57,629 nt of DNA. Source: Spirochaetia bacterium. Its GTDB lineage: Bacteria; Spirochaetota; Spirochaetia; CADAEX01. The stretch spans positions 1 to 57,629 of the forward strand of contig JAGCPA010000042.1 of the NCBI GenBank assembly GCA_017642445.1. The letters run 5' to 3'. The notes under the pieces were generated by a model that did not search any database, was not told where the DNA came from, and was given only the letters and a program-made list of their open reading frames with translations. Positions 9,776 through 45,482 of this stretch are shown here, one piece after another; the stretch's first letter is position 1; the number at the start of each line of letters is the position of its first letter. Position numbers and translations under genes: made by a program.

Positions 9776-9820
9776 TTTTGTCTTCTTTTTTTGCGCTCTT
9801 GCCTCTGGATGGAATTTATT

Positions 9821-12800
9821 ATGAAAAAAACTACCTTATTATTTATTTCTTTACTTGTTCTGACTACCACATTTATGTTCTCCTGTGGCGGTGGCGGCGG
9901 TGGAGCTGATAATGCAATAAAAGAGGTATTCACCATAAGCTATAATGCTAACGGGGCAGAGTATGGAGTAGCCCCTGCTAAGCAGAGCGGCGATGAGGAT
10001 TCACCTCAGGCGGTACAGGCAAACACAGGTAACCTTTCTAAGAGCGGATATCTATTCGACGGCTGGAACACAGCTGCAGACGGTTCCGGCATCAACTATG
10101 CCCCAGGCTCTTCCTATAAAGGGAAGAATGTGGTTCTCTATGCCAAGTGGGCAGCAATATTTAATGTAGAAGTGATTAATCCAGGTTCCCCGGCACCAGC
10201 ACTCAACGGAGCACAACAGAGGGCACCGGGTGTTCCTTATATTAGAATACTTAGCCTCACAGCAAAGGGTAGAACTCTTTCTAATATCAACATCCCAGCT
10301 TCAATTGATGGCTATACAGTAGTTTCCATAGGAAGCGGAGCTTTCCAGGGCTGTGATACTTTCACAGCAATAACAATACCAGAAAGCGTCACCTCCATTG
10401 AGGACAATGCTTTTACTGGATGTACCGGAATTTCCTCGTTGATTATTCCGAGAAGTGTCACCTCGATAGGAGACGGTGCGTTCTCAGGGTGCGCTGGTTT
10501 GAACAGCCTTATTCTGCTTAATCCAACACCTCCTGCCATGGGATCAGATGCCATGGCAGGTTGTACAGCTGTGGTAAGTGTTCCACTAGCCGGAGTTGAT
10601 GCGTATAAAGCTAAAGAAGGATGGGATACTTATTCCAGTCAGATAGTAGGATATGGTACCGAGACTTATACTGTATTTTTTGACGGACAGGGTGCGACAA
10701 CATCAGCCAACCCTGCAAGAAAAGCTGTTGTTCCTCCAGCTGTAACCGTGGGACAACTTCCAACATCACCAATTAAGACTGGTTACAATTTCGGCGGCTG
10801 GTTTACAAAGCCAGAAGGAGCAGGAACTGAGTTTACTGCAAGTACTGTGGTTTCATCAAATATCACAGTATATGCAAAATGGAATGAATATAATTACACA
10901 GTTACATTCAATGATCGAGGAGCGACAACTCCTGTAGGAGATACATCAAAATCAGTAATTTCTCCAAACACAACAGTTGGTACACTACCAACTGAGCCAG
11001 CTTATTCTGGTTTCTATTTCGGAGGATGGAATACTAAGTCAGACGGGACTGGTACTTACTTCGATGCCAACACGCCAGTAACTGCTGACATAACGGTTTA
11101 TGCAATTTGGATGGCTAATCCGACTTTTACTGTAACTTTTGACAGCGAGGGGGCTACAAACTATGCCACTAAACAAATTCAGGTTGTTTCGCCTAATACT
11201 ACTACAGGTGAATTACCTACGGATCCAGTAAGAAATGGGTTTACTTTTAAAGGATGGTATAAAGGAAGAGAGGGAACTGGAGAAAAATTTACTGCAAGTA
11301 CAATAGTTACAGGTAATATTACAGTTTATGCCTCATGGACAGCTCTTATCAGATATGAAGTTAATGGTTTGAATGCTACAATTACTGGACTTACTACAGA
11401 AGGTAGGGCTCTGTCGCAGATACAGATTCCTGAGACGATAGATACATATACTGTAACAGCTATTGGAAGCTATGCTTTTGAGGAATGCAGTAATCTCACC
11501 AGTATTACTTTACCGAACACTATAGCAAGCATTGGAGATAATGCATTCTATAGATGTAGCAAACTTGCTTCAATTAATTTGCCAGATGGATTACCTAATA
11601 TCGGTAATAGAGTATTCTATCAGTGTACTAAGTTGACAAGCATTACTTTACCAGAGAGTATAACAGCTATTCGAGAAGCTGCATTCTGTCAGAGTGGCTT
11701 AACAAGCATAAGAATACCAGCAAGTGTAGTAAGCATTGGAGAAGATGCATTTGCAGGATGTTCTTTAAATGAAGTGACAATTTCAGATTATGTAATTAGA
11801 TACTTCACCACAATTTTTGAAGATATTGGAGTAAAGAGTGTAATAATAATAGACGGGTCGACATCTATTTCTGAACGGGCCTTTGAAAACTATACAAGTC
11901 TTACCAATATAACTATCCCCAATAGTGTGACCAGTATTGGTGCTTATGCATTCAACGGCTGTACTGGGTTAACAAGTATAATAATATCTTCTGGTGTTAC
12001 AAGCATTGGAAATAATGCATTTTCTAATTGTACTAATCTAATTACTATTTATTTTAATGCTATTAATTGCCCAAGGATAGGCAGTGACAATGATCCTAAT
12101 GATAACCCAGCTTTTAATGGTTGCAGTAAACTGAAATCGGTGATTATTGGAAATGGTGTTAAGATAATACCCTCTTATGCATTTTGTTACTGTTCATGGC
12201 TTATTAATATAACAATTCCAAATAGTGTGACTACTATTGGCAGTAGTTCATTCAGAAGTTGTTCGGGACTTTCTAGCATAACGATTCCAAGTAGCGTAAC
12301 CAATATTGGCACTGATGCATTTAAATATTGCTCGGGGCTTACTAGCATAGTGATTCCAAATAGTGTGATTAGTATTGGTCCAACTGCATTTGAATATTGT
12401 ACAGGGCTTAATGATGTAACCTTATCTAATGGCCTGACTTATCTTCAAGGTCGTTTATTCTCCGGTTGTACTGAAATCACAAGTATAACAATACCCAATG
12501 GCGTAAAAATAATTGGAGAAAGAGTTTTTGCAGGAACTGGACTTACTAGTATAACCATACCAAATAGTGTAACAAGTATTGATTCTCTAGCGTTTGAGGC
12601 TTGTAATAGTTTTTCTAATATAGATGTAAATATATCTAATACAAAATACAGTAGTCAGGATGGGGTGTTGTTTGATAAAAATAAAACAACAATAATAAAA
12701 TATCCTCAGGGTAAAAATAATAATTATATAATACCTAATAGTGTAACCCAAATTGGTCATAATGCATTCAGGGGTATTGGGAATAAAAGTATAACAATAC

Positions 12801-13087
12801 CAAATAGTGTAACCATAATTGAAGATTATGCATTTAGCTATTCTGGGCTCACAAGTATAACAATACCCAATAGTGTATCATCAATTGGAGCAGGTACATT
12901 TAATGGTTGTTTTGACCTTACAACTGTTATTGTGAAGAACAATACACCTCCTGTAATCAGTAACTATTCTTTATCTTTATCTTGGCCATCATTATCAGCT
13001 ATCAAAGTCCCAGCAGAATCAGTGGCAGCATATAAAACCGCTGATGGATGGTCTGATTATGCGAATTTGATTATAGCAGATGAGTGA
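9821..13087 (+). CDS. BspA-like surface lipoprotein: polyglycine, InlB B-repeats and LRR_5 repeats
   Basis: A 1088-aa predicted surface protein. The lipoprotein signal is MKKTTLLFISLLVLTTTFMFSC, followed by six Gly residues. An InlB-type B-repeat (FDGWNTAADGSG...LYAKW) follows, then a first set of BspA-type leucine-rich repeats (IPxSVTSIGxxAFxGC pattern), then three more B-repeats. After about residue 545 comes a long run of at least twelve LRR_5 units to the C-terminus. Such proteins bind host or microbial surfaces in oral and gut Treponema and Bacteroides. The start chosen is the ATG before the signal peptide; an upstream ATG at 9791 would add ten non-signal residues. The first 150 residues closely match the lipoprotein at 43.4 kb. 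The later LRR half is AT-rich with near-identical DNA repeats of about 69 bp. Confidence 0.92.
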   Translation: MKKTTLLFISLLVLTTTFMFSCGGGGGGADNAIKEVFTISYNANGAEYGVAPAKQSGDEDSPQAVQANTGNLSKSGYLFDGWNTAADGSGINYAPGSSYKGKNVVLYAKWAAIFNVEVINPGSPAPALNGAQQRAPGVPYIRILSLTAKGRTLSNINIPASIDGYTVVSIGSGAFQGCDTFTAITIPESVTSIEDNAFTGCTGISSLIIPRSVTSIGDGAFSGCAGLNSLILLNPTPPAMGSDAMAGCTAVVSVPLAGVDAYKAKEGWDTYSSQIVGYGTETYTVFFDGQGATTSANPARKAVVPPAVTVGQLPTSPIKTGYNFGGWFTKPEGAGTEFTASTVVSSNITVYAKWNEYNYTVTFNDRGATTPVGDTSKSVISPNTTVGTLPTEPAYSGFYFGGWNTKSDGTGTYFDANTPVTADITVYAIWMANPTFTVTFDSEGATNYATKQIQVVSPNTTTGELPTDPVRNGFTFKGWYKGREGTGEKFTASTIVTGNITVYASWTALIRYEVNGLNATITGLTTEGRALSQIQIPETIDTYTVTAIGSYAFEECSNLTSITLPNTIASIGDNAFYRCSKLASINLPDGLPNIGNRVFYQCTKLTSITLPESITAIREAAFCQSGLTSIRIPASVVSIGEDAFAGCSLNEVTISDYVIRYFTTIFEDIGVKSVIIIDGSTSISERAFENYTSLTNITIPNSVTSIGAYAFNGCTGLTSIIISSGVTSIGNNAFSNCTNLITIYFNAINCPRIGSDNDPNDNPAFNGCSKLKSVIIGNGVKIIPSYAFCYCSWLINITIPNSVTTIGSSSFRSCSGLSSITIPSSVTNIGTDAFKYCSGLTSIVIPNSVISIGPTAFEYCTGLNDVTLSNGLTYLQGRLFSGCTEITSITIPNGVKIIGERVFAGTGLTSITIPNSVTSIDSLAFEACNSFSNIDVNISNTKYSSQDGVLFDKNKTTIIKYPQGKNNNYIIPNSVTQIGHNAFRGIGNKSITIPNSVTIIEDYAFSYSGLTSITIPNSVSSIGAGTFNGCFDLTTVIVKNNTPPVISNYSLSLSWPSLSAIKVPAESVAAYKTADGWSDYANLIIADE

Positions 13088-18394: not shown

Positions 18395-18423
18395 TTGACA
18401 ACAGATTCATTTTCGGTGTAGAA
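18395..18423 (+). promoter_or_regulatory. Promoter of the T-box leader
   Basis: TTGACA at 18395-18400 matches the sigma-70 -35 consensus. After a 16-base spacer comes TGTAGA (18417-18422), a moderate -10 box. Transcription would start near 18430, just before the first stem of the T-box. Confidence 0.6.
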
Positions 18424-18439
18424 AAAAATAACAAAACCT

Positions 18440-18713
18440 ATTAAAGGCTACGAAGGGAACAAGTAGCTTCTATGGATACTGAAAAGAGAGTTGCCGGGTG
18501 GTGAGAGGCGCGCAGTTACTGGAAGTGAATACATCCCGGAGCCGCGTATCGAAACTGTAAGGGAGTAGGTTACGACGGGTGTGCCCGTTACAGCGCAAGG
18601 GTATAATCATACGTTGTGTGACGTACCTGAAGAGATTGCCACTGCGAGGTGGTGATGAATAGAGGTGGTACCGCGGAATTATCCGCCCTCTTGATCGGGG
18701 GGCGTTTTTTTTT
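18440..18713 (+). promoter_or_regulatory. T-box riboswitch, apparent tyrosine (UAC) specifier
   Basis: The conserved T-box sequence GGTGGTACCGCG is at 18664-18675, followed by the competing terminator CGCCCTC/GGGGGGCG (18684-18704) and nine T. Upstream, a Stem I can be folded: GGCT (18446-18449) pairs with AGCC (18540-18543) and GGGA with TCCC. An AGTA-bearing left side of the specifier loop faces GTGAATACA on the right. The AG-bulge/GNUG-type region AAAAGAGAG...GGTGGTGAGAG lies in between. By alignment to known leaders, the specifier is TAC at 18530-18532, Tyr. Uncharged tRNA-Tyr would stabilise the antiterminator and turn on the downstream symporter. The T-box call is firm; the specifier is read by eye. 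Confidence 0.92.
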
Positions 18714-18753
18714 GCCTCCAGATGATGCAGACTTTGTATGAAGGAGGAAAAGT

Positions 18754-20337
18754 ATGAATGCAAAAGTTGTAAGCGTCATTATGCTGCTGGTCTTCTTTGC
18801 TGTGATGATTGCCGTGGGCTTCATTACCAGGAAAAGGGCGGCTTCTGTTGATGGATTTGTTTTAGGGGGGCGTACCGCCGGCCCGTGGATTACCGCATTT
18901 GCCTTTGGTACCTCTTATTTCTCGGCAGTTATCTTTGTAGGATATGCAGGACAGTTCGGCTGGAACTTCGGCCTTTCAAGCACCTGGGCCGGCCTGGGAA
19001 ATGCCTTTATCGGCTCGCTTCTGGCCTGGAACATACTGGGACGGCGTACCCGTATCATGACCCAGCATATCGATGCCAAGACTATGCCCGACTTCTTCGG
19101 CAAGCGTTTTGACTCTGTCCCGATGAAGGTTGTGGCTTCTGTAATAGTCTTCATCTTCCTTATTCCATACACATCATCTCTGTACAACGGTCTCTCCAGC
19201 CTCTTCGGTCTGGTGTTCAAGATGCCATACTGGGTGGTAATAGTGATGATGGCAGCACTCACCGGAATCTACGTAATTTTCGGCGGCTACATGGCTACTG
19301 CTATCAACGACTTTATTCAGGGTATAATCATGCTCTTCGGTATCTGCGCAGTAATAGGCTCTGTCCTCTCTGCCAACGGCGGACTCCTGGCAGCGACCCA
19401 GAAGCTTTCTGCAGTCTCTGCTCCGGGCTGGTCAGGCGGCGCATTCACATCGTTCCTGGGACCTGATCCTCTGGCGCTTCTCTTTGTAGTGCTCCTGACA
19501 TCTCTTGGTACCTGGGGACTGCCTCAGATGGTGAACAAATTCTACGCCATCAAGAGCGAGGATGATATCCAGAAGGGAACAATAATCTCCACACTGTTCG
19601 CTATTGTAGTGGCAGGCGGCTGTTACTTCCTGGGCGGCTTCGGACGGCTCTACGCAGACAAGATCATGTACCAGAAGAACGGAGTCACACCTCTGTTTGA
19701 TACTATTGTTCCAACTATGCTGGCAACACTGCCTGCCCTGGTTATCGCAGTAGTTATCGTGCTGGTGCTCTCTGCATCAATGTCCACACTCTCTTCTCTG
19801 GTGCTCACCTCCAGCTCCACATTCACACTGGATGTCATCGAGCCTCTCTCAAAGAATAAGATGGGAGAGAAGAAGAAAGTCTCCATAATGCGTATTTTCA
19901 TCGTGTTCTTCATCGTGATCTCAGCATACATTGCAATCATCAAGGATGCTCATCCTGAAATCACATTCATCGCCCAGATGATGGGTGTCTCCTGGGGTGC
20001 TCTGGCCGGATCATTCCTGGCTCCGTTCCTCTATGGACTCTACTGGAAGGGAACTTCACGGGCAGCATGCTATGTCTCCTTTGCCTTTGGCTGCGGTCTT
20101 ATGATTATCCAGATGTGGGTTTCCCTGGGTGGCGTAGATATCTCTGGCTGGGCTCCGGTATGCCGCTACCTCTTCGCATCCTCAGTCCGCTCCGGTGTTA
20201 TCGCCATGGTGGGCGGTCTTGTGATTGTCCCGGCGGTGAGCATCTTCACAAAGAAGCAGGACAAGGCACAGCTGGAAGAACTTTTCTCCTGCTACGAGGA
20301 AAAGGTTACTGTTTCCAAGAAAGAGGCTCTGGACTGA
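18754..20337 (+). CDS. Sodium:solute symporter (SSS family), T-box controlled
   Basis: A 527-aa transporter with about 13 helices of the LeuT-fold SSS family. Typical elements: DGFVLGGRTAGPWITAFAFGTSYFSAVIFVGYAGQFGWNFG (residues about 29-69), RIMTQHIDAKTMPDFFGKRF, GGYMATAINDFIQGIIMLFG and GLPQMVNKFYAIKSEDDIQKG. The sequence looks very like clostridial homologues. A T-box leader with apparent Tyr specifier suggests that the substrate is tyrosine or a related aromatic compound; this is an inference from regulation. A GGAGG ribosome-binding site precedes the ATG. The next gene begins 84 bp downstream with no terminator between. Confidence 0.9.
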   Translation: MNAKVVSVIMLLVFFAVMIAVGFITRKRAASVDGFVLGGRTAGPWITAFAFGTSYFSAVIFVGYAGQFGWNFGLSSTWAGLGNAFIGSLLAWNILGRRTRIMTQHIDAKTMPDFFGKRFDSVPMKVVASVIVFIFLIPYTSSLYNGLSSLFGLVFKMPYWVVIVMMAALTGIYVIFGGYMATAINDFIQGIIMLFGICAVIGSVLSANGGLLAATQKLSAVSAPGWSGGAFTSFLGPDPLALLFVVLLTSLGTWGLPQMVNKFYAIKSEDDIQKGTIISTLFAIVVAGGCYFLGGFGRLYADKIMYQKNGVTPLFDTIVPTMLATLPALVIAVVIVLVLSASMSTLSSLVLTSSSTFTLDVIEPLSKNKMGEKKKVSIMRIFIVFFIVISAYIAIIKDAHPEITFIAQMMGVSWGALAGSFLAPFLYGLYWKGTSRAACYVSFAFGCGLMIIQMWVSLGGVDISGWAPVCRYLFASSVRSGVIAMVGGLVIVPAVSIFTKKQDKAQLEELFSCYEEKVTVSKKEALD

Positions 20338-20421: not shown

Positions 20422-21615
20422 ATGAGTAGAATGGTTGGAACTGTTTCTAGAGGTCTTCGTGCCCCTATCATCCGCGAAGGTGATGATCTGGTGAAGATTG
20501 TCACAGAGACTGTTCTTGAGGCTTCTAAACAGGAAGGATTTGCGGTACGTGACCGCGATGTTGTGGCTATGACCGAGGCTATTGTAGCCCGCGCTCAGGG
20601 TAACTATGCTACAGTTGCCGATATTGCTGCAGATGTGAAGGCCAAGCTGGGCGGCGGAACCATCGGAGTTGTATTCCCGATTATGAGCCGCAACCGTTTT
20701 GCAATCTGTCTACGGGGTATTGCTTCTGGCGCCAAGAAAGTTATTGTTCAGCTTTCATATCCATCTGATGAGGTTGGAAACCATCTTATTGACGACGATC
20801 TGGTGGATGCAAAGGGTGTTGATCCATATACCGACGTGCTTGATGAGAAAAAATATCGCGAGCTTTTCGGATATACAAAGCATCAGTTCACAGGTGTGGA
20901 CTACATTGATTATTATAAGCAGTTGATCGCTGAGAGCGGTGCGGAGGCAGAGGTTATCTTTGCCAACAATCCTAAGGCAATCCTGCAGTACACAAAAGAT
21001 GTTATCTGTGCCGACATCCACACACGGGCACGGACAAAGAGAGTCCTTAAGGCTGCCGGTGCTGAAAGAGTTTTCGGCCTTGATGAGATTATGAATGCTC
21101 CTGTAAACGGCAGCGGATGCAATGAGAAATATGGACTTCTTGGCTCCAATAAGGCTACCGAGGACAAAGTGAAGCTGTTCCCAAGAGCATGCCAGGGCCT
21201 GGTTGAGGATATCCAGAAGGAGCTTTTCAAGGCTACCGGCAAGAATGTCGAGGTCATGGTATATGGCGACGGCGCTTTCAAGGATCCTGTAGGAAAGATC
21301 TGGGAGCTTGCTGACCCTATCGTTTCTCCGGCTCACACAGCAGGACTTGCAGGAACACCTAACGAGCTCAAGCTGAAGTATCTGGCAGACAACGATTTTG
21401 CAGCACTTGATGGAGATGCCCTTAAGGAGGCAATTAAGGAAGAGATCCGCAAGAAGGACGGCAACCTGGTTGGCAAGATGGTTTCCGAGGGAACCACTCC
21501 ACGGCAGCTTACAGACCTTCTGGGCTCTCTCTGCGACCTTACCTCCGGATCAGGCGACAAGGGAACTCCTATAGTTTACATCCAGGGTTATTTTGACAAC
21601 TATACTACCGAGTAA
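20422..21615 (+). CDS. Coenzyme F420-0:L-glutamate ligase-like protein (CofE family)
   Basis: A 397-aa member of the CofE/FbiB family, whose characterised members add glutamate to F420-0 with GTP. The N-terminal GTVSRGLRAPIIREGDDLVKIV and DRDVVAMTEAIVARAQGNYATV match the family, and ADIHTRARTKRVLKAAGAERVFGLDEI is distinctive of longer bacterial versions. No other F420 genes are visible, so it may add amino acids to another molecule. I chose the ATG at 20422 (AAGGGG upstream) over 20374. It shares a transcript direction with the T-box symporter and overlaps the next gene by 23 bp if that gene starts at TTG. Confidence 0.85.
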   Translation: MSRMVGTVSRGLRAPIIREGDDLVKIVTETVLEASKQEGFAVRDRDVVAMTEAIVARAQGNYATVADIAADVKAKLGGGTIGVVFPIMSRNRFAICLRGIASGAKKVIVQLSYPSDEVGNHLIDDDLVDAKGVDPYTDVLDEKKYRELFGYTKHQFTGVDYIDYYKQLIAESGAEAEVIFANNPKAILQYTKDVICADIHTRARTKRVLKAAGAERVFGLDEIMNAPVNGSGCNEKYGLLGSNKATEDKVKLFPRACQGLVEDIQKELFKATGKNVEVMVYGDGAFKDPVGKIWELADPIVSPAHTAGLAGTPNELKLKYLADNDFAALDGDALKEAIKEEIRKKDGNLVGKMVSEGTTPRQLTDLLGSLCDLTSGSGDKGTPIVYIQGYFDNYTTE

Positions 21616-30737: not shown

Positions 30738-33700
30738 ATGAAAAAGTCTGTTTTTGCGGTTTTAATGTTTGCATGCTGTGCCTGTCTTGCTGCAGGACAG
30801 AGCGATGAGCTTTTCCGCAGGGCTCTGTCGGAGCGGAACGAGAACCGATGGTACGAGATATCTGACCGGTTTGGAAAGAAGGGAGCAGAAGACTGGGACA
30901 GGGTTTACTCCACCTGGCTATGGCAGCAGATAGAGTCCAGGATAGTCTCTCCCGATATCCAGCGGTTCTCTGATCAGCTGTCAGAGCAAGCTGCCAGGAT
31001 GACTCACACAGCAGGGGCACAGGATAATTTTGCCGATACCCTTGCCGATTGGAGAAATTATGGTCAGGTGTCGATGCAGAATCTGTACCATGAATGGGAG
31101 ATGGCTGCAGGTGCAGTCTATGACCAGATGGCATCTTTGCTGCCAGATGATGCCCGGAACCAGGTCTCTGAATTTTTTGAGGATTATAAGAGCAGGGTTC
31201 ATAAAGAGCTTGAGACCCTGTTTTTAGCAGGGGAAAGAAGGTTTCTCTCTTCTCATCTCCGGGCAGATGATGCAGATTCCAACGATGAGAAAACTGGGAA
31301 AAAGAAGATAGAGGATATGTTTGAGGAGATTGCATCTGCTTCTGACACCAGCCTCCAGTCGCTTCAGGAGAGGTGGGACACCACATTTGACCCCGGAATA
31401 TCTCAATGGAATACTTATACTTCCCAGACTCTCGGTTCCAAGGTGGACTGGAGCAATCTGACTTATACACAGAATCTGGAAGGCAAAGATGCCCTTGAGA
31501 ATGCTATGGCTGAGCTTGCGGAGAGCAGGAACAGCTGGTTTGCAGAGCTTCAGGCTGCCCTCCAGGCAGGTAAGACCGCCTTGGATGGCAGGGCCGCAAC
31601 CTTCTTCAACGGGATGGAAGATACTTTGGATCAGACCCGTGCGGCATTTGACCAGAATGCCCAGCTGCTTCAGACCAGGATGGATGCGGTATTTGCCCAG
31701 TTCAGCACAGTCAAAGGAATAAAGGATCAGGCCACATCCAACAGGCAGAGCTGTCTTGCTGAAAAATCCAATATCGAGAGCTATAAAGCAGAGCTTCAAG
31801 CCAGTGTAAATACCTGTAACAGTTCTATCGCAAATCTGGATAATAAGATCAGAAGAAATAATGAAGAAATTGCGGATTATAACAGGGCGAAACTCTTTGT
31901 CGGATCTATTTACAGCGATGAGAACGGACATCTTAATCAGGCTACTCTCGAATATTATAACAGCATGATTGCCTCTCTCCAGGCCGAGATACAGAGCTGG
32001 GAGGCAGAGAAAGCCCGTATTGTGAGTCAGAGAAACACATTGAATGCCCTAATATCTCAGCAGAATGATAAGATAACGGCCTATACCCAGCAGGCTGCTT
32101 TCTGGGTCGATGCTATCTCCAGGTGCAACACCAGAGAAGCAGAGATAAGACAGAGCATGGCAAGCATAGAGGGAGAGATACGGAGTGCAGGATGGCCTGC
32201 CGATGCAGATATCCAGCTCTATGAGCTTAAAGCCGAGATGGAGAGCCTTGCTCAGAATGCGGAGATAGCCCGCAAAGTCTATGAGTTTGCCCTTGATATC
32301 AGCTCTGGAAAGGTGGTCAGGGAAGAGGTGTTTGACGCATACGCCGAAGCCGAGAAAGCGATGGCAGATGCAGATGCTGCATATAAAAATTCAGTCGCTT
32401 CCTTAAAGGAACTGGCAGCTGAACTTGATGATAAGAGCGGAGTTGACCAGACCGCCTATCTGGCTCTGGCAGATGAATACAACAGAAAAGCAGAAGAAAG
32501 CAGAGAACTTTATGAACAGTATGCCAGTGCAGTGATGAACTTCAAGGTGCAGGACAGAAAGCGGGAATATATTATGTCCCCGGGCAGTACTCCGGAAGAT
32601 GCGCTTAAATCTTTAAATGAGGCTCAGAAAGCCTTGGCAGAGGCATCGGAAAAATATGATGCTGCTGTTCTGATGGCACAGCAGAATGCTTCTGGTCAGG
32701 AAAAGTCAGAGAGTACAGAGATAGTTCAGTCAGTCCTCTATCTCAACAGGGTGGGAGAGGCAGTGCAGGCTGATACCGAGGACTTGTATGCTAAAGCTGC
32801 CCTTGCAGACCGGAATGCTGATCTGCGTCTTTCTGACAGGCTGTTCAACGATGGAAGCGATATAGCTCTTGAGTTTGTTCAAAAAATGAACAACTCTCTG
32901 CTCCGTGAATTCTCCCTCGCATACTACTGGCGGAGCCTGCATAATTCAGGGTTCAAGACTATTGATGTGGCTATATACAGCGACCAGAACTTCCAGAAGC
33001 TTAAAAGCTATGGCTATGCTTTCAGCCATCCGGAGGATTATTCAACCTCACAGGCTCAGGCCGCCTACAACGAGATTGCCAGGTCGCCGGAGAAATTAAG
33101 GCTTTATACCTATTTCGAGGAATCGATCAACAATGGCAGTGCCCAGTTTAATATCTCATTTATCGGTAAAGATGTGAGCGATGTGGCTCATGACTATCTG
33201 TGGGATGTGTCGGTGGAGAAGGAAAAGAATTACGAGGAAAACCATGCGGTTTATAACTTTTTCACCAGGAAATCCAAGAAGATGCGGAGCATGCGCAAAG
33301 CAATGGCAGATATAGACGGAAATCTGGAACGTTCTGAGATTATGGAAACTGTCAGCTATATCAAAGGAGAACTGGAGGCAAAGAACAGGTATGAGACTCT
33401 TGCTGGTGAAGTTCTGGATGAGGATAAAAGTTACAGCTTTGATGAGTTTATGGCAAAGTGCAGGGAATGTTCGGGCCTGGTTTTAGCTGATGATGCTGCG
33501 CTGGAAAACTATTTCAACCGGCTGGACTCGGATGAGAGAAAAGGGTTTTTATCCCTTCTCTCAAATCTCTCATCTCTGATTATGAGCGAGGATGTCTACA
33601 TAACCTTGGGACAGCTGAATGGACTGGATGATTACGGCAGCTCCTCAAACCGCCTAATGATAATGAATCTGACAGGTGTTGAACTGATGAACAAGTATCA

Positions 33701-36527
33701 GGAGATGGCAGAGTTTTCTGTTAAGAAAATGGCTGCAGACCTGAACTTGACTTATAAAGAGCTTTCTGATGACTCTGCCTCCTGGGATGCTATGACTGAA
33801 AATCTTCTTGCTTTGGCAGAGGATAAGTGGACCATGATGCTTGAGAATATCAAGACAGAGATGAAGAGCAGGCTTCAGTTTGAGACTATAAAGAGCGTAT
33901 CATCAGAAGATGAATTCATAGAGGATGTCATTCAGCATAGTACTTATCTGGTGGCTCTCCAGATGTCGACTGCTGTGGATGATCTTGAGAATCAGCTGCT
34001 GTCTCATATAGAGAAAGCTAACCAGACTGCTGACAGAAGAATAACAGACCTTCTGGAGGGGAAGGGGTATGTAAGGCATGGTTCAAATTTCAAGCGCAGG
34101 GTTATAGTCGGAGAGACTCTACTGGGAGGTATTGAGCATGAGAATCAGAGTATAGAGGGGTACCGGTGGTTCTGTGCACCTGTCTTCAACCTGGGTGTGG
34201 ATCTCTCTCCTTCTTATATAGAGGGGCTGAGTCTTGTACATCTTGCGGCTTTGGTTGAACAGGCCGAGACAGCAATAGACCGGTATACAAAAGTGGTGTT
34301 CGGCCAGAGCGGCAGCATTGAGGCAGCCTCTTGGAACGGCTTTGATCAGGATATGCTTGCTTATATGCAGCAGGCAGAATCTGGTTTCCGCAGCTCTGCC
34401 CAGTATTCAGATTATTCTGGTGTAAAAGGCCTTTTTGCAATGCACATCGGTTATGTTCCTGTCATGTCCAGCTCAGATCCGGAGAAGGTTCTGAAAAAAG
34501 GATACGGAGAATATGGCAGGATATTTGAGCTTTTCTATAAGAACGAAGGGAAGCTGGGGCGGGGGCTGGCTGCCATTGATGTTCCTTTCTATATGCAGAA
34601 GCTTTGGGATGAGGACAAGGATAATGACGGCAGGACCGACACCATCCTTTTTTCTCTTCCAAGCATAAGGGAAGGGGGCCAGATTGTATGCAATATATTC
34701 AGCTCTATCAATCCTGGTCTGGGGCTTATGGTGACAGCTTTTGACAGCACCACATTCGCAGGGCTTGATATGGTGTTTGCAGGGAAAAGTTTTGAAGATG
34801 CAGTCAAGGATGTGAATAAAAGGATGGCCCAGGCAGCCTCCAGCTGGGGAACCAGTTCCCTGGCCCAGGCGGCACAGCCGGCACAGTCTGCCGCAACAGG
34901 AACCAGGCTTCTTCAGGCTGCCGCAGTATCGGTGGGCAAAGGGTATGCCGACCAGGCCGTTGCTTCTGCTGTGGAGGGAGAACCCTTTGATAAAGCTATG
35001 AAACCTGATGCCAAGAGAACCCTCGGCAACCTGGTGCGCAACTGGATAAGCAGCAGGCTCTCCGGATTTCTGGGAGAAGACAGGATTGCGGCAGAGCAGG
35101 TTGCAAGCTTTGCCGGTACCCTTGCCGATGCTGGTTATGACCTTGCCACCACAGGAAGGGCTAAATTCAATGTGCTCAAGATCAATGACCATATTGGAAT
35201 CCTGGAGATGAATATAGGAGGCGAAGGGCCAATCTTTGAAATAGGAACTGGTGGCTATGACATAAGTAAAAATACTGTGGAATCTGCCATTGCATCAGCC
35301 TATGTCTTAAAGGAGGACAACAGGATCCGTCACAGCTCCGATTTCTCCAAAGACAACAAGATAACAATGCGGGCCCTTTTCTCCGAGGGAAAAATCCAGA
35401 GTCAGGTGGAGCATCTCTATAACCTGCTTCTGAACGATGAAGCGGCAGTAGAGTATGGAGATCTCAAGGGTGCTCTGGCCTATACTTCTGAAGATGAATG
35501 GGGTGTAAGAAACATCATACTCAATCTGATTCCATCCAGCTCGATATCAGATCAGCTTAAGGCCGCTGTCATACTGGCCCATGAGGCATTCCGCAACGGA
35601 AAAGATGACGGCTTATTCCAGATTCTTGAGACAGCAGATGCAGTTCTGGGGCATGCAAAGATGGCCTATGACATTATCAATTCCGGCTTCAATTATCCCG
35701 ATATCACACTTATCAAAAACGAAGTGGAATCCTTGGTCGGAGGTAACATGGCCGATCTTTTTGTGAATGCCCTGGTCAACTATACCTCAAGCGGCGACTA
35801 CTGGCGGCTGATCGGGGATGGCAAGGCTGTGTGGGATGGCCACATGAACCTGTATCAGGAGAATGGTAATCTTCTTTACAACTATCAGCTGTTAAAGACA
35901 GCTTTGGAGTCTGGTGTTGAGAGTATAGCGGGAGTTCCACAGGAAAGGCTTTCCGATATTGTGTGGAAGAACTCTCTTCTGGAGGCGGCTGGGACAAAGG
36001 TTGATGGTACCTATGCATCAAAAACGGCAGAGGCTCTTCTCTCCGACGGTTACATGAGTTACAGCGAAGCAGTCGATTCTCTTTCTGGTGCAGCAGGCAG
36101 GATATTTGCAGTTCCAGATTTGTTCCAGCATTACAGCGCGCGGATTATAGCCAATGATACAGCTATGCTCGAAAAATATTTCTCCGATCCCGATATGCTT
36201 AAAAAATGGAGCGACAGAAACCAGCCGGTTCAGTATCTGAATGGAGTCAAGGCAACTCTGCTTCCCGACAGCAAGTCGGTTTTCCATATAGCTCCAAAGG
36301 ACAGAGCCACCTACAAGTGGGTGCTTGATGATGGCAGAGAGCTTGTGATAGGGGAAAGAAAAGATGGGACAAAGTATGTGCAGACCGACGACCGTTATCT
36401 TGGAACATACAATATGGCAAACCCAGACAGCCCGTTGGAGCACGCGGTCAAGGATGTCTTCCCTTATATCATTCTAGGCAACACACCCGATGACAGCTCT
36501 ATTGCGAATTTCCTCTTTTCTTTGTAA
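30738..36527 (+). CDS. Giant secreted coiled-coil protein, 1929 aa
   Basis: Signal peptide MKKSVFAVLMFACCACLAAG. Residues about 100-560 are predicted to be long coiled coils (for example QASVNTCNSSIANLDNKIRRNNEEI and AEAEKAMADADAAYKNSVASLKELA). A second helical block runs to about 1130. At about 1291-1302 DEDKDNDGRTDT looks like an EF-hand or dockerin-type calcium loop. An alanine-rich stretch (about 1370-1410) precedes a globular C-terminal part. It may belong to the very long spirochaete protein family known from Leptospira (TIGR04388 type); I cannot confirm this. The gene lies behind tRNA-Pro with a GGAGG site and is 20 bp upstream of pyrK. The function is unknown; a structural periplasmic or surface role is plausible. 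Confidence 0.85.
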   Translation: MKKSVFAVLMFACCACLAAGQSDELFRRALSERNENRWYEISDRFGKKGAEDWDRVYSTWLWQQIESRIVSPDIQRFSDQLSEQAARMTHTAGAQDNFADTLADWRNYGQVSMQNLYHEWEMAAGAVYDQMASLLPDDARNQVSEFFEDYKSRVHKELETLFLAGERRFLSSHLRADDADSNDEKTGKKKIEDMFEEIASASDTSLQSLQERWDTTFDPGISQWNTYTSQTLGSKVDWSNLTYTQNLEGKDALENAMAELAESRNSWFAELQAALQAGKTALDGRAATFFNGMEDTLDQTRAAFDQNAQLLQTRMDAVFAQFSTVKGIKDQATSNRQSCLAEKSNIESYKAELQASVNTCNSSIANLDNKIRRNNEEIADYNRAKLFVGSIYSDENGHLNQATLEYYNSMIASLQAEIQSWEAEKARIVSQRNTLNALISQQNDKITAYTQQAAFWVDAISRCNTREAEIRQSMASIEGEIRSAGWPADADIQLYELKAEMESLAQNAEIARKVYEFALDISSGKVVREEVFDAYAEAEKAMADADAAYKNSVASLKELAAELDDKSGVDQTAYLALADEYNRKAEESRELYEQYASAVMNFKVQDRKREYIMSPGSTPEDALKSLNEAQKALAEASEKYDAAVLMAQQNASGQEKSESTEIVQSVLYLNRVGEAVQADTEDLYAKAALADRNADLRLSDRLFNDGSDIALEFVQKMNNSLLREFSLAYYWRSLHNSGFKTIDVAIYSDQNFQKLKSYGYAFSHPEDYSTSQAQAAYNEIARSPEKLRLYTYFEESINNGSAQFNISFIGKDVSDVAHDYLWDVSVEKEKNYEENHAVYNFFTRKSKKMRSMRKAMADIDGNLERSEIMETVSYIKGELEAKNRYETLAGEVLDEDKSYSFDEFMAKCRECSGLVLADDAALENYFNRLDSDERKGFLSLLSNLSSLIMSEDVYITLGQLNGLDDYGSSSNRLMIMNLTGVELMNKYQEMAEFSVKKMAADLNLTYKELSDDSASWDAMTENLLALAEDKWTMMLENIKTEMKSRLQFETIKSVSSEDEFIEDVIQHSTYLVALQMSTAVDDLENQLLSHIEKANQTADRRITDLLEGKGYVRHGSNFKRRVIVGETLLGGIEHENQSIEGYRWFCAPVFNLGVDLSPSYIEGLSLVHLAALVEQAETAIDRYTKVVFGQSGSIEAASWNGFDQDMLAYMQQAESGFRSSAQYSDYSGVKGLFAMHIGYVPVMSSSDPEKVLKKGYGEYGRIFELFYKNEGKLGRGLAAIDVPFYMQKLWDEDKDNDGRTDTILFSLPSIREGGQIVCNIFSSINPGLGLMVTAFDSTTFAGLDMVFAGKSFEDAVKDVNKRMAQAASSWGTSSLAQAAQPAQSAATGTRLLQAAAVSVGKGYADQAVASAVEGEPFDKAMKPDAKRTLGNLVRNWISSRLSGFLGEDRIAAEQVASFAGTLADAGYDLATTGRAKFNVLKINDHIGILEMNIGGEGPIFEIGTGGYDISKNTVESAIASAYVLKEDNRIRHSSDFSKDNKITMRALFSEGKIQSQVEHLYNLLLNDEAAVEYGDLKGALAYTSEDEWGVRNIILNLIPSSSISDQLKAAVILAHEAFRNGKDDGLFQILETADAVLGHAKMAYDIINSGFNYPDITLIKNEVESLVGGNMADLFVNALVNYTSSGDYWRLIGDGKAVWDGHMNLYQENGNLLYNYQLLKTALESGVESIAGVPQERLSDIVWKNSLLEAAGTKVDGTYASKTAEALLSDGYMSYSEAVDSLSGAAGRIFAVPDLFQHYSARIIANDTAMLEKYFSDPDMLKKWSDRNQPVQYLNGVKATLLPDSKSVFHIAPKDRATYKWVLDDGRELVIGERKDGTKYVQTDDRYLGTYNMANPDSPLEHAVKDVFPYIILGNTPDDSSIANFLFSL

Positions 36528-43315: not shown

Positions 43316-43361
43316 TTCTAATAGAATTATATTTTTATGTTTTTTATGGGGTTTAAATTTG

Positions 43362-45482
43362 ATGAAGAAGACTGCCTATAAATTTACACTTTCACTTATC
43401 CTTGCTGTTGCACTCATGTTCTCCTGCGGCGGTGGCGGCGGTGGTGGAGGAGTTGACAATGCAATAGAAGACAATTCTTTCTCCATAGGCTACAATGCCA
43501 ATGGGGCAGAGTCTGGTGAAACTCCTGCTTCACAAAATGGAAGTGGTAAAGAAGCTCTGTCAGTAAGTGCAAATACTGGCAATCTTGCAAAAGGAGGATA
43601 TCTCTTTGATGGATGGAACACTTCTGCAGACGGTTCTGGGACAGATTATGCTCCTGGAGCCTTGTATAATGGTAAAAATATCACCCTGTATGCCAAGTGG
43701 GCGGCAATATTCAATGTTCAGGTGATTAATCCAGGTTCTCCTGCACCTGCCTTGGATGGTGTCCAGAGAGCCCCGGGGTTATCTTATCTTAAGATTCTTG
43801 GTCTTACAGCAAGGGGAAGAACTCTCCCTAATATTATTATCCCAAAAGCTATCGATGGTTATACGGTATCCTCTATAGGTGATAATGCATTTCAAGACTG
43901 CAGTAATCTTGCAGAAGTTACTATTCCGGAAACAGTAACAGAAATCGGAGATAGTGCTTTCAGTGGATGTTCAAACCTATCAGAGATTACAATGCAGGGG
44001 ACAACGCCTCCAACTGTAGGGGCAAATGCGTTTGATGGCTGTGTGCAGCTTGCAGTAAATGTTCCACAGAGTGCAGCATCAGCATATACTTCTGACCCAA
44101 ATTGGAGTACAGTACCTATTTTAGCACCTAATACATTTAGTATACTTTACAATGGAAATGGTTCAGATGGAGGAATTGTCCCCTCTAGACAGGTTGAAGC
44201 GATAGGATCACCCGTACATATACATGGCAACGATGGAAATCTGACCAGGGCAGGCTGTACATTCAACGGATGGAATACTAAAGCAGATGGCACTGGTAAC
44301 AGCTTTGCAGTGGATGAATCGTATGACGGACCAGAAGATATGTTACTTTATGCCCAGTGGACGCACCCTGATTATATTGTCACCTTCAATGGCAATGGGG
44401 CAGATACAGAGGCTTCTCCAGGAAGTATTACAGTCAAAGCTCCTGCTAATACTATAAGTTCTTTGCCAGCAACACTTCCAACGAAAAATGGATATCATTT
44501 TGTTGGATGGTATACACAGGCTGGCGGAACAGGTGACCCGTTTGTTGTCGGCTCACAAGTTATAAGTAGTATGACCGTATATGCAAAGTGGAGCGAGAAT
44601 GATTACACCGTTTCATATAATAGAAACAATGCAACAGGTGGTTCTGTACCGGCATCCCATGCTACGAAATTTAATCAGTCCATAACCCTGCATGACAATA
44701 CAGGAAACTTGGTAAGAACTGGATATAGGTTCGAAGGTTGGAACACTATGGCAGACGGTTCTGGAACTGATTATGCAGTTGGGGCAAGTTATAAAGTAAC
44801 TGGAGACGCAACACTTTATGCCAAGTGGGTTCTTTCATATTCCAGTATTCCTGGTAACAGAAACGATATTGCTGTTGGAGATATTGTCCTTGCAGATGGA
44901 AAGACAGCAACCACTGTAAACTATACGAGCGATACTCATGCTGCATATACAGCAGCTTCTGGTATTCCGGTAGGAGTGGTGGCATATGTAGGTACAGCAG
45001 AAGCAGGCGAAGAGGGAACTGTCTACATGGTTGGTCTCAATCAGAGTTCCCTCGCTTGGGCATTGTATCAAAAATGGGGCTGGTCTACTGAACTATCTAC
45101 AACTAATTCAGGCTTTTACAACACTTATACTATTATTCAGAATCTTGTAGACTATAGTGCTTCAAACTATCCAGCATTCGGCTATGCTATTGACTACAAC
45201 GTGACTGGGTACACAAATGGCTGGTTTGTCCCTAGTTTAAATGAACTGAGTCAAATACATTATAATAGGTCAAATATTAATGATGGACTTACTGCAATAA
45301 TAGGGGCAGGCGGGACAACAACAGTCTTGAAAGATTCTACTTTCTGGTCGTCGTCTCAAAGCCATAATAGTGGTACGGCAATGGCGTATAATCAAGGATT
45401 TTACAGCTGGGATGGAGCTCCTAACACAAACACGAAAGATTGTTCATTCACGGTACGCGTTGTCCATGCTTTGGACGATTAA
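43362..45482 (+). CDS. Surface lipoprotein: polyglycine, InlB B-repeats and DUF1566 (Lcl-type) C-terminus
   Basis: A 706-aa paralogue of the lipoprotein at 9.8 kb. The lipoprotein signal MKKTAYKFTLSLILAVALMFSC is followed by eight Gly. Next come an InlB B-repeat (FDGWNTSADGSG...LYAKW), a short BspA-type LRR part (SIGDNAFQDCSNLAEVTIP), and three more B-repeats (FNGWNTKADGTG, FVGWYTQAGGTG, FEGWNTMADGSG). The C-terminal domain has GWFVPSLNELSQIHYNRSNIN, then FWSSSQSHNSGTAMAY and SFTVRVVHAL. The last is the DUF1566/Lcl C-type-lectin-like fold, a binding domain that is sometimes diversified by retroelements. ATG at 43362 is chosen over the TTG three bases before. Confidence 0.9.
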   Translation: MKKTAYKFTLSLILAVALMFSCGGGGGGGGVDNAIEDNSFSIGYNANGAESGETPASQNGSGKEALSVSANTGNLAKGGYLFDGWNTSADGSGTDYAPGALYNGKNITLYAKWAAIFNVQVINPGSPAPALDGVQRAPGLSYLKILGLTARGRTLPNIIIPKAIDGYTVSSIGDNAFQDCSNLAEVTIPETVTEIGDSAFSGCSNLSEITMQGTTPPTVGANAFDGCVQLAVNVPQSAASAYTSDPNWSTVPILAPNTFSILYNGNGSDGGIVPSRQVEAIGSPVHIHGNDGNLTRAGCTFNGWNTKADGTGNSFAVDESYDGPEDMLLYAQWTHPDYIVTFNGNGADTEASPGSITVKAPANTISSLPATLPTKNGYHFVGWYTQAGGTGDPFVVGSQVISSMTVYAKWSENDYTVSYNRNNATGGSVPASHATKFNQSITLHDNTGNLVRTGYRFEGWNTMADGSGTDYAVGASYKVTGDATLYAKWVLSYSSIPGNRNDIAVGDIVLADGKTATTVNYTSDTHAAYTAASGIPVGVVAYVGTAEAGEEGTVYMVGLNQSSLAWALYQKWGWSTELSTTNSGFYNTYTIIQNLVDYSASNYPAFGYAIDYNVTGYTNGWFVPSLNELSQIHYNRSNINDGLTAIIGAGGTTTVLKDSTFWSSSQSHNSGTAMAYNQGFYSWDGAPNTNTKDCSFTVRVVHALDD

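Follow-up and report, generated by a model that had tools for sequence, protein, structure and literature searches.

T-box leaders of the Bacillus subtilis tyrS type consist of a Stem I with a UAC specifier, a Stem III, an antiterminator with a UGGU bulge for A73, and a terminator. The reductive carboxylation of arylacetates is an old observation in rumen bacteria. This route, in which IOR acts with an arylacetate-CoA ligase, is described for methanogens and has been proposed for Bacteroides, where an AMP-forming ligase encoded beside IOR was assayed as an arylacetate-CoA ligase and suggested to act in biosynthesis (PMC13285125). A 2008 survey distinguished seven families of T-box-regulated transporters, and the SSS family was not among them (PMC2494555). 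In the literature that we searched, we found no report of a T-box associated with paaK or iorAB, nor of a T-box in Treponema, and a prior description is possible. As far as this literature shows, the new element is a regulon in which a tyrosine T-box governs a putative salvage module of the arylacetate type and which has passed to a spirochaete with no detected TyrA.

We analysed a stretch of 57,629 nucleotides, hereafter the window, from the genome of a rumen spirochaete. A sequence-only reading had placed a T-box with Stem I and a competing terminator at 18440–18713 and had suggested a search with the Rfam T-box model. The coordinates were right, and cmscan returned a full-length match to RF00230 at 18441–18693 on the + strand (120.9 bits, E 2.8e-26), above the curated cut-off of 93 bits. 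According to the Rfam model alignment, Stem I, including the specifier loop and the apical loop, spans 18447–18542 (+), a Stem IIA/B-like element GACGGGUGUGCCCGUUA (GACGGG...CCCGUUA) 18574–18590 (+), and Stem III about 18633–18656 (+). The antiterminator helix (18661–18691, +; −11.5 kcal/mol when folded alone) is built from the arms AGAGG (18661–18665) and CCUCU (18687–18691) and contains the T-box sequence GGUGGUACCGCGG, which begins at 18664; its UGGU bulge corresponds to 18666–18669. An intrinsic terminator was detected by terminator scan at 18684–18713 (+), with a stem at 18684–18704 followed by nine T at 18705–18713 (−13.1 kcal/mol). Its bases 18684–18691 overlap the 3' arm of the antiterminator, and the two structures are thus mutually exclusive. 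Upstream, we read from the sequence a candidate promoter at 18395–18424 (+), with TTGACA at 18395–18400, an 18-nt spacer and TAGAAA at 18419–18424. We grade it as weak because the consensus promoter scan, whose criteria it misses, reported none on the + strand.

The specifier triplet is UAC (Tyr) at 18530–18532 (+), in the context GUGAA-UAC-AUCCCG-GAGC. The tRNA-Tyr of the same genome (L168:226-309) has the anticodon GUA, which matches this specifier, and the discriminator A73; its CCA end is not encoded. A73-CCA is complementary to the UGGU bulge, with U18669 facing A73. As a control for the position of the specifier, ACC (Thr) sits at the same distance of 6 nt from the GAGC motif in thrS T-boxes of other spirochaetes. 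Both the TAC specifier and the pairing of the NCCA end of tRNA-Tyr with the bulge, which had been put forward from the sequence alone, thus stand. Going by RNA anatomy, specifier and tRNA match, all of which can be read in the sequence, the leader is a canonical, transcription-terminating tyrosine T-box, an ordinary T-box as RNA, and it would presumably sense tRNA-Tyr in vivo.

The regulated gene (18754–20337, +) starts at the ATG at 18754, downstream of a Shine-Dalgarno sequence AGGAGG (18742–18747, +), and codes for a 527-aa Na+/solute symporter of the SSS family (PF00474, 169.8 bits, above the gathering score of 22.8). Its best NCBIfam model is the proline symporter PutP, an identity that we rejected since the score of 177 bits is far under the equivalog cut-off of 515.5. 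Directly downstream of the symporter gene, window positions 20422–21615 code for an F420-0:gamma-glutamyl ligase domain protein (PF01996), matched weakly and under cut-off by both NCBIfam CofE models. The window also harbours genes for large proteins, probably located at the cell surface, that contain leucine-rich repeats of the BspA type and Listeria-Bacteroides repeats (9791–13087 and 43359–45482), and a 1929-aa ORF without any Pfam match (30738–36527).

All genomes compared are MAGs. The host genome (1.70 Mb, 98.7% complete, 0.8% contamination) yielded no SSU rRNA gene for a 16S placement, and we placed it by the kinship labels of the genome collection, in a family (f1) separate from the large treponeme-like family f3. 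The genome and its congeners carry spirochaete labels, in agreement with the initial guess at the host. The symporter leader and gene are kept in six of the seven genomes of the genus, and the leader and flanking genes show 85–94% nucleotide identity across congeners, with about 9.9 kb aligned in G001. In a sister genus, G009 has a UAC T-box (L010:1202-1461, −) ahead of a 58% identical SSS symporter found on a long branch. Tyr T-box control is common to the family, but that of G009 is perhaps of separate origin.

The relatives of the symporter are mostly found in clostridial gut MAGs (60–81% identity), and 17 clostridial relatives have a T-box upstream, in all cases with UAC. In the symporter tree, the genus forms a supported clade (100) nested inside Clostridia, and a set with a support of 99 joins the four genus rows with L017, L018 and L021, which are clostridial and all have a UAC T-box. 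Leader and gene align jointly with those of L017 (73% over 1.9 kb), and the closest clostridial versions of leader and gene are 72–74% identical. The clostridial affinity of the symporter and its acquisition together with the leader had both been suspected beforehand. Since the three nearest outside relatives share the UAC T-box and the symporter nests in Clostridia, the simplest account is that leader and gene very probably moved together from Clostridia, a riboswitch passing between phyla along with its gene.

A covariance search found exactly two T-boxes in the host genome. The second, on contig C53 (103.2 bits), also has the specifier UAC and lies upstream of a gene for a 544-aa AMP-forming acyl-CoA ligase. 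The triplet UUA (Leu) was considered as its specifier and dropped for wrong spacing, because UAC lies 6 nt from GAGC, as do the specifiers of the symporter and thrS leaders. The terminator of this T-box is weak and irregular, and control is possibly weak or translational. In the ligase leader at L002:1420-1500, a GUGUUU/AAACAC hairpin is found in place of a clear U-rich terminator. Both T-boxes were found in five congeners, and that of the ligase alone in G005. All T-boxes examined that are linked to the symporter or the ligase have the specifier UAC, i.e. 17 clostridial ones and 16 of the spirochaete family, the latter count taking in one leader of a tyrosine phenol-lyase (TPL) gene and one congener under two loci. 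No Phe or Trp specifier was seen among the examined T-boxes of the symporter/ligase module.

The T-box ligase is FadD/4CL-like, with an AMP-binding domain and AMP-binding_C (PF13193). It reaches no curated equivalog cut-off, and the solved structures closest to it are those of fatty-acyl, feruloyl and malonyl ligases. A PaaK-type arylacetate-CoA ligase was rejected for this gene, as the AMP-binding_C_2 domain of the PaaK family is absent and PF13193 is found instead. Clostridial ligases are 62–77% identical to it. In the ligase tree, it groups with clostridial sequences (L048, L083 and L091) other than those closest to the symporter, and the ligase may thus have been acquired separately.

The ligase gene adjoins the symporter gene in 30 of 80 loci. 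Within at most 3 kb of the symporter in the 79 non-spirochaete loci, we found the ligase in 31 (one being a weak opposite-strand fragment), iorA in 15, paaK in 12, and at least one of ligase, iorA, iorB and paaK in 40. By our estimate, chance would place iorA in a flank of about 6 kb of a 2-Mb genome in well under 1% of loci. L050 and L091 encode, in one direction, T-box, ligase, symporter, iorA, iorB and paaK, and L080 and L086 have the order T-box, symporter, ligase, iorA. Half of the clostridial symporter loci lack all three of ligase, IOR and PaaK in their vicinity, and the majority of the clostridial loci are without a T-box. In the host genome, the symporter, ligase, iorAB and paaK genes are spread over four contigs, and no T-box precedes iorAB. 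In some treponeme-like loci (L183 and L190), the symporter and ligase genes are neighbours; the genomes in question are not among the T-box carriers.

We then considered the tyrosine metabolism of the host. Prephenate dehydrogenase (TyrA, PF02153) was detected in none of the eight good genomes of the family and in 124 of the 152 good genomes of the phylum; a more sensitive search found it in all 14 control genomes. The one match in the family comes from G004, whose contamination amounts to 7%. We found chorismate synthase in 10 of 11 family genomes, and the host encodes prephenate dehydratase (PheA); we therefore rejected the idea that the regulon exists because the entire shikimate pathway was lost. 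With these enzymes present and TyrA undetected, the host probably makes phenylalanine, and not tyrosine, by the standard route. Most clostridial hosts of the module possess TyrA.

The host has an operon of aminotransferase, iorA-like, iorB and M20 amidohydrolase genes (L169:4915-9499, −). Its IorB scores above the cut-off (261.6 bits versus 222), and its IorA-like protein, which is shorter than the model (profile positions 4–542 of 595), scores 512.4 bits against a cut-off of 650.9. Full IorA above cut-off was found in 17 of the 31 genomes searched, all of them reached via the loci of the clostridial relatives. The M20 amidohydrolase might free arylacetates from amino acid conjugates. A PaaK+ACT pair is also encoded in the host genome, which makes it a further candidate for arylacetate activation beside the T-box ligase; a PaaK-type enzyme is present in every family genome searched, and we discarded the idea that the T-box ligase has no other arylacetate-type ligase at its side. 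In a sister genus, G008, which has neither TyrA nor full IorA, harbours a UAC T-box (L009:1501-1782) ahead of a gene for TPL (L198:4478-5923); when aligned, the protein retains the TPL residues T124, R381 and F448, and its best solved match is a TPL. Because a Tyr T-box controls this gene, the enzyme may work towards tyrosine synthesis.

Through the T-box, uncharged tRNA-Tyr increases expression, and the genes under its control should therefore provide tyrosine. A CoA ligase and IorAB can do so only in the synthetic direction, which points to reductive carboxylation, and the symporter, which shares an operon with them, would in the simplest case bring in the acid. From this reasoning we infer the substrate of symporter and ligase and the direction of IorAB; the role of the symporter is suggested by operon association. 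Thus, it is likely that in tyrosine-starved cells the Tyr T-box switches on arylacetate import and CoA activation, leading to reductive carboxylation and transamination to tyrosine. Uncharged tRNA-Tyr(GUA) would pair with UAC in Stem I through its anticodon and with the UGGU bulge through its free ACCA end. The antiterminator would then prevail over the terminator and the symporter would be made, the symporter and ligase T-boxes together forming a small tyrosine regulon. The symporter would import an arylacetate, probably 4-hydroxyphenylacetate, and the ligase would convert 4-hydroxyphenylacetate to its CoA ester. IorAB would reductively carboxylate this ester to 4-hydroxyphenylpyruvate, which the aminotransferase of the iorAB operon would turn into tyrosine. 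In this manner, the arylacetate route would stand in for the missing prephenate dehydrogenase. A broader scenario is conceivable, and we propose it tentatively: a Tyr T-box regulon for arylacetate salvage, including a Na+/4-hydroxyphenylacetate symporter and a FadD-like arylacetate-CoA ligase, might have formed in gut Clostridia and moved to a spirochaete genus that lost TyrA, where it would be the main Tyr route, the TPL of G008 being synthetic and filling the same gap.

The sequence-only reading had taken the symporter for a tyrosine importer tied to tRNA-Tyr charging. The Tyr T-box holds; tyrosine as the substrate is less likely than was stated. With the same T-box, a Tyr auxotroph would raise its uptake of tyrosine itself, which would be useful to a genome with no detected TyrA. 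Tyr T-boxes are known ahead of NhaC and NSS tyrosine transporters (PMC2494555), and the best NCBIfam model of the symporter is an amino-acid symporter, though far under cut-off. However, direct tyrosine import leaves the repeated linkage with ligase, iorAB and paaK and the Tyr T-box of the ligase unexplained; because of these operon partners we rank it below arylacetate import and regard it as rather unlikely. Symporter and ligase might instead handle phenylacetate, indoleacetate, an arylpropionate or a fatty acid, with Tyr control as part of a broader aromatic or anabolic response. Broad specificity is frequent among IOR and arylacetate ligases (PMC13285125), and the solved relatives of the ligase would fit with such substrates, but the presence of UAC in all examined T-boxes of the module, with no Phe or Trp specifier, makes another acid improbable. 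Finally, decay of the leader in the spirochaete, or clostridial contamination of the bins, is barely credible despite the clostridial affinity of gene and leader in a MAG without 16S, given the identity of leader and flanks across congeners, their presence in six of seven genomes, the retention of all elements and the terminator, and the distance to the closest clostridial versions.

The premise of the sequence-only reading that T-boxes are unusual in Spirochaetes fails, as 72 of the 393 genomes of the phylum have a T-box, 25 of them above the curated cut-off. Outside family f1, 25 T-box loci were fetched; an ORF was present downstream in 23, and all 23 read as ThrRS, with TIGR00418 confirming five. 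T-boxes, chiefly thrS where checked, are therefore present in many spirochaete families, in contrast with their absence from the six spirochaete genomes of the 2008 survey (PMC2494555). The thrS T-boxes (L096-L120, many families) are common in Spirochaetia and have the specifier ACC and a UGGA, UGGG or UGGU bulge. Within the phylum, tyrosine T-boxes were seen in family f1 only.

A T-box specifier tells which amino acid a gene serves. A Tyr specifier, kept in all linked leaders examined from Clostridia to a spirochaete, would indicate what an importer and a CoA ligase without annotation do, and provides a candidate transporter and regulator for arylacetate reductive carboxylation. It also suggests that gut anaerobes may draw tyrosine from the aromatic acids of the gut.

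Compared with the thrS T-boxes of other Spirochaetia, the symporter leader belongs to the same RNA family in the same phylum, but the former have an ACC specifier, in many cases a UGGA or UGGG bulge, and a threonyl-tRNA synthetase gene downstream. With the Tyr T-box leaders of Firmicutes it shares the same RNA elements, and it differs from them by its spirochaete host and by the SSS symporter that it regulates. As with the NhaC and NSS tyrosine transporters, a Tyr T-box precedes a cation-coupled transporter; the transporter family is nevertheless unrelated, and its partners, a CoA ligase and iorAB, are atypical of plain amino acid uptake. Lastly, the arylacetate route of methanogens and Bacteroides has in common with this system iorAB, an AMP-forming ligase, an aminotransferase and PaaK with an ACT protein, whereas here a Tyr T-box and a candidate importer are added and the ligase is FadD/4CL-like rather than PaaK-like.
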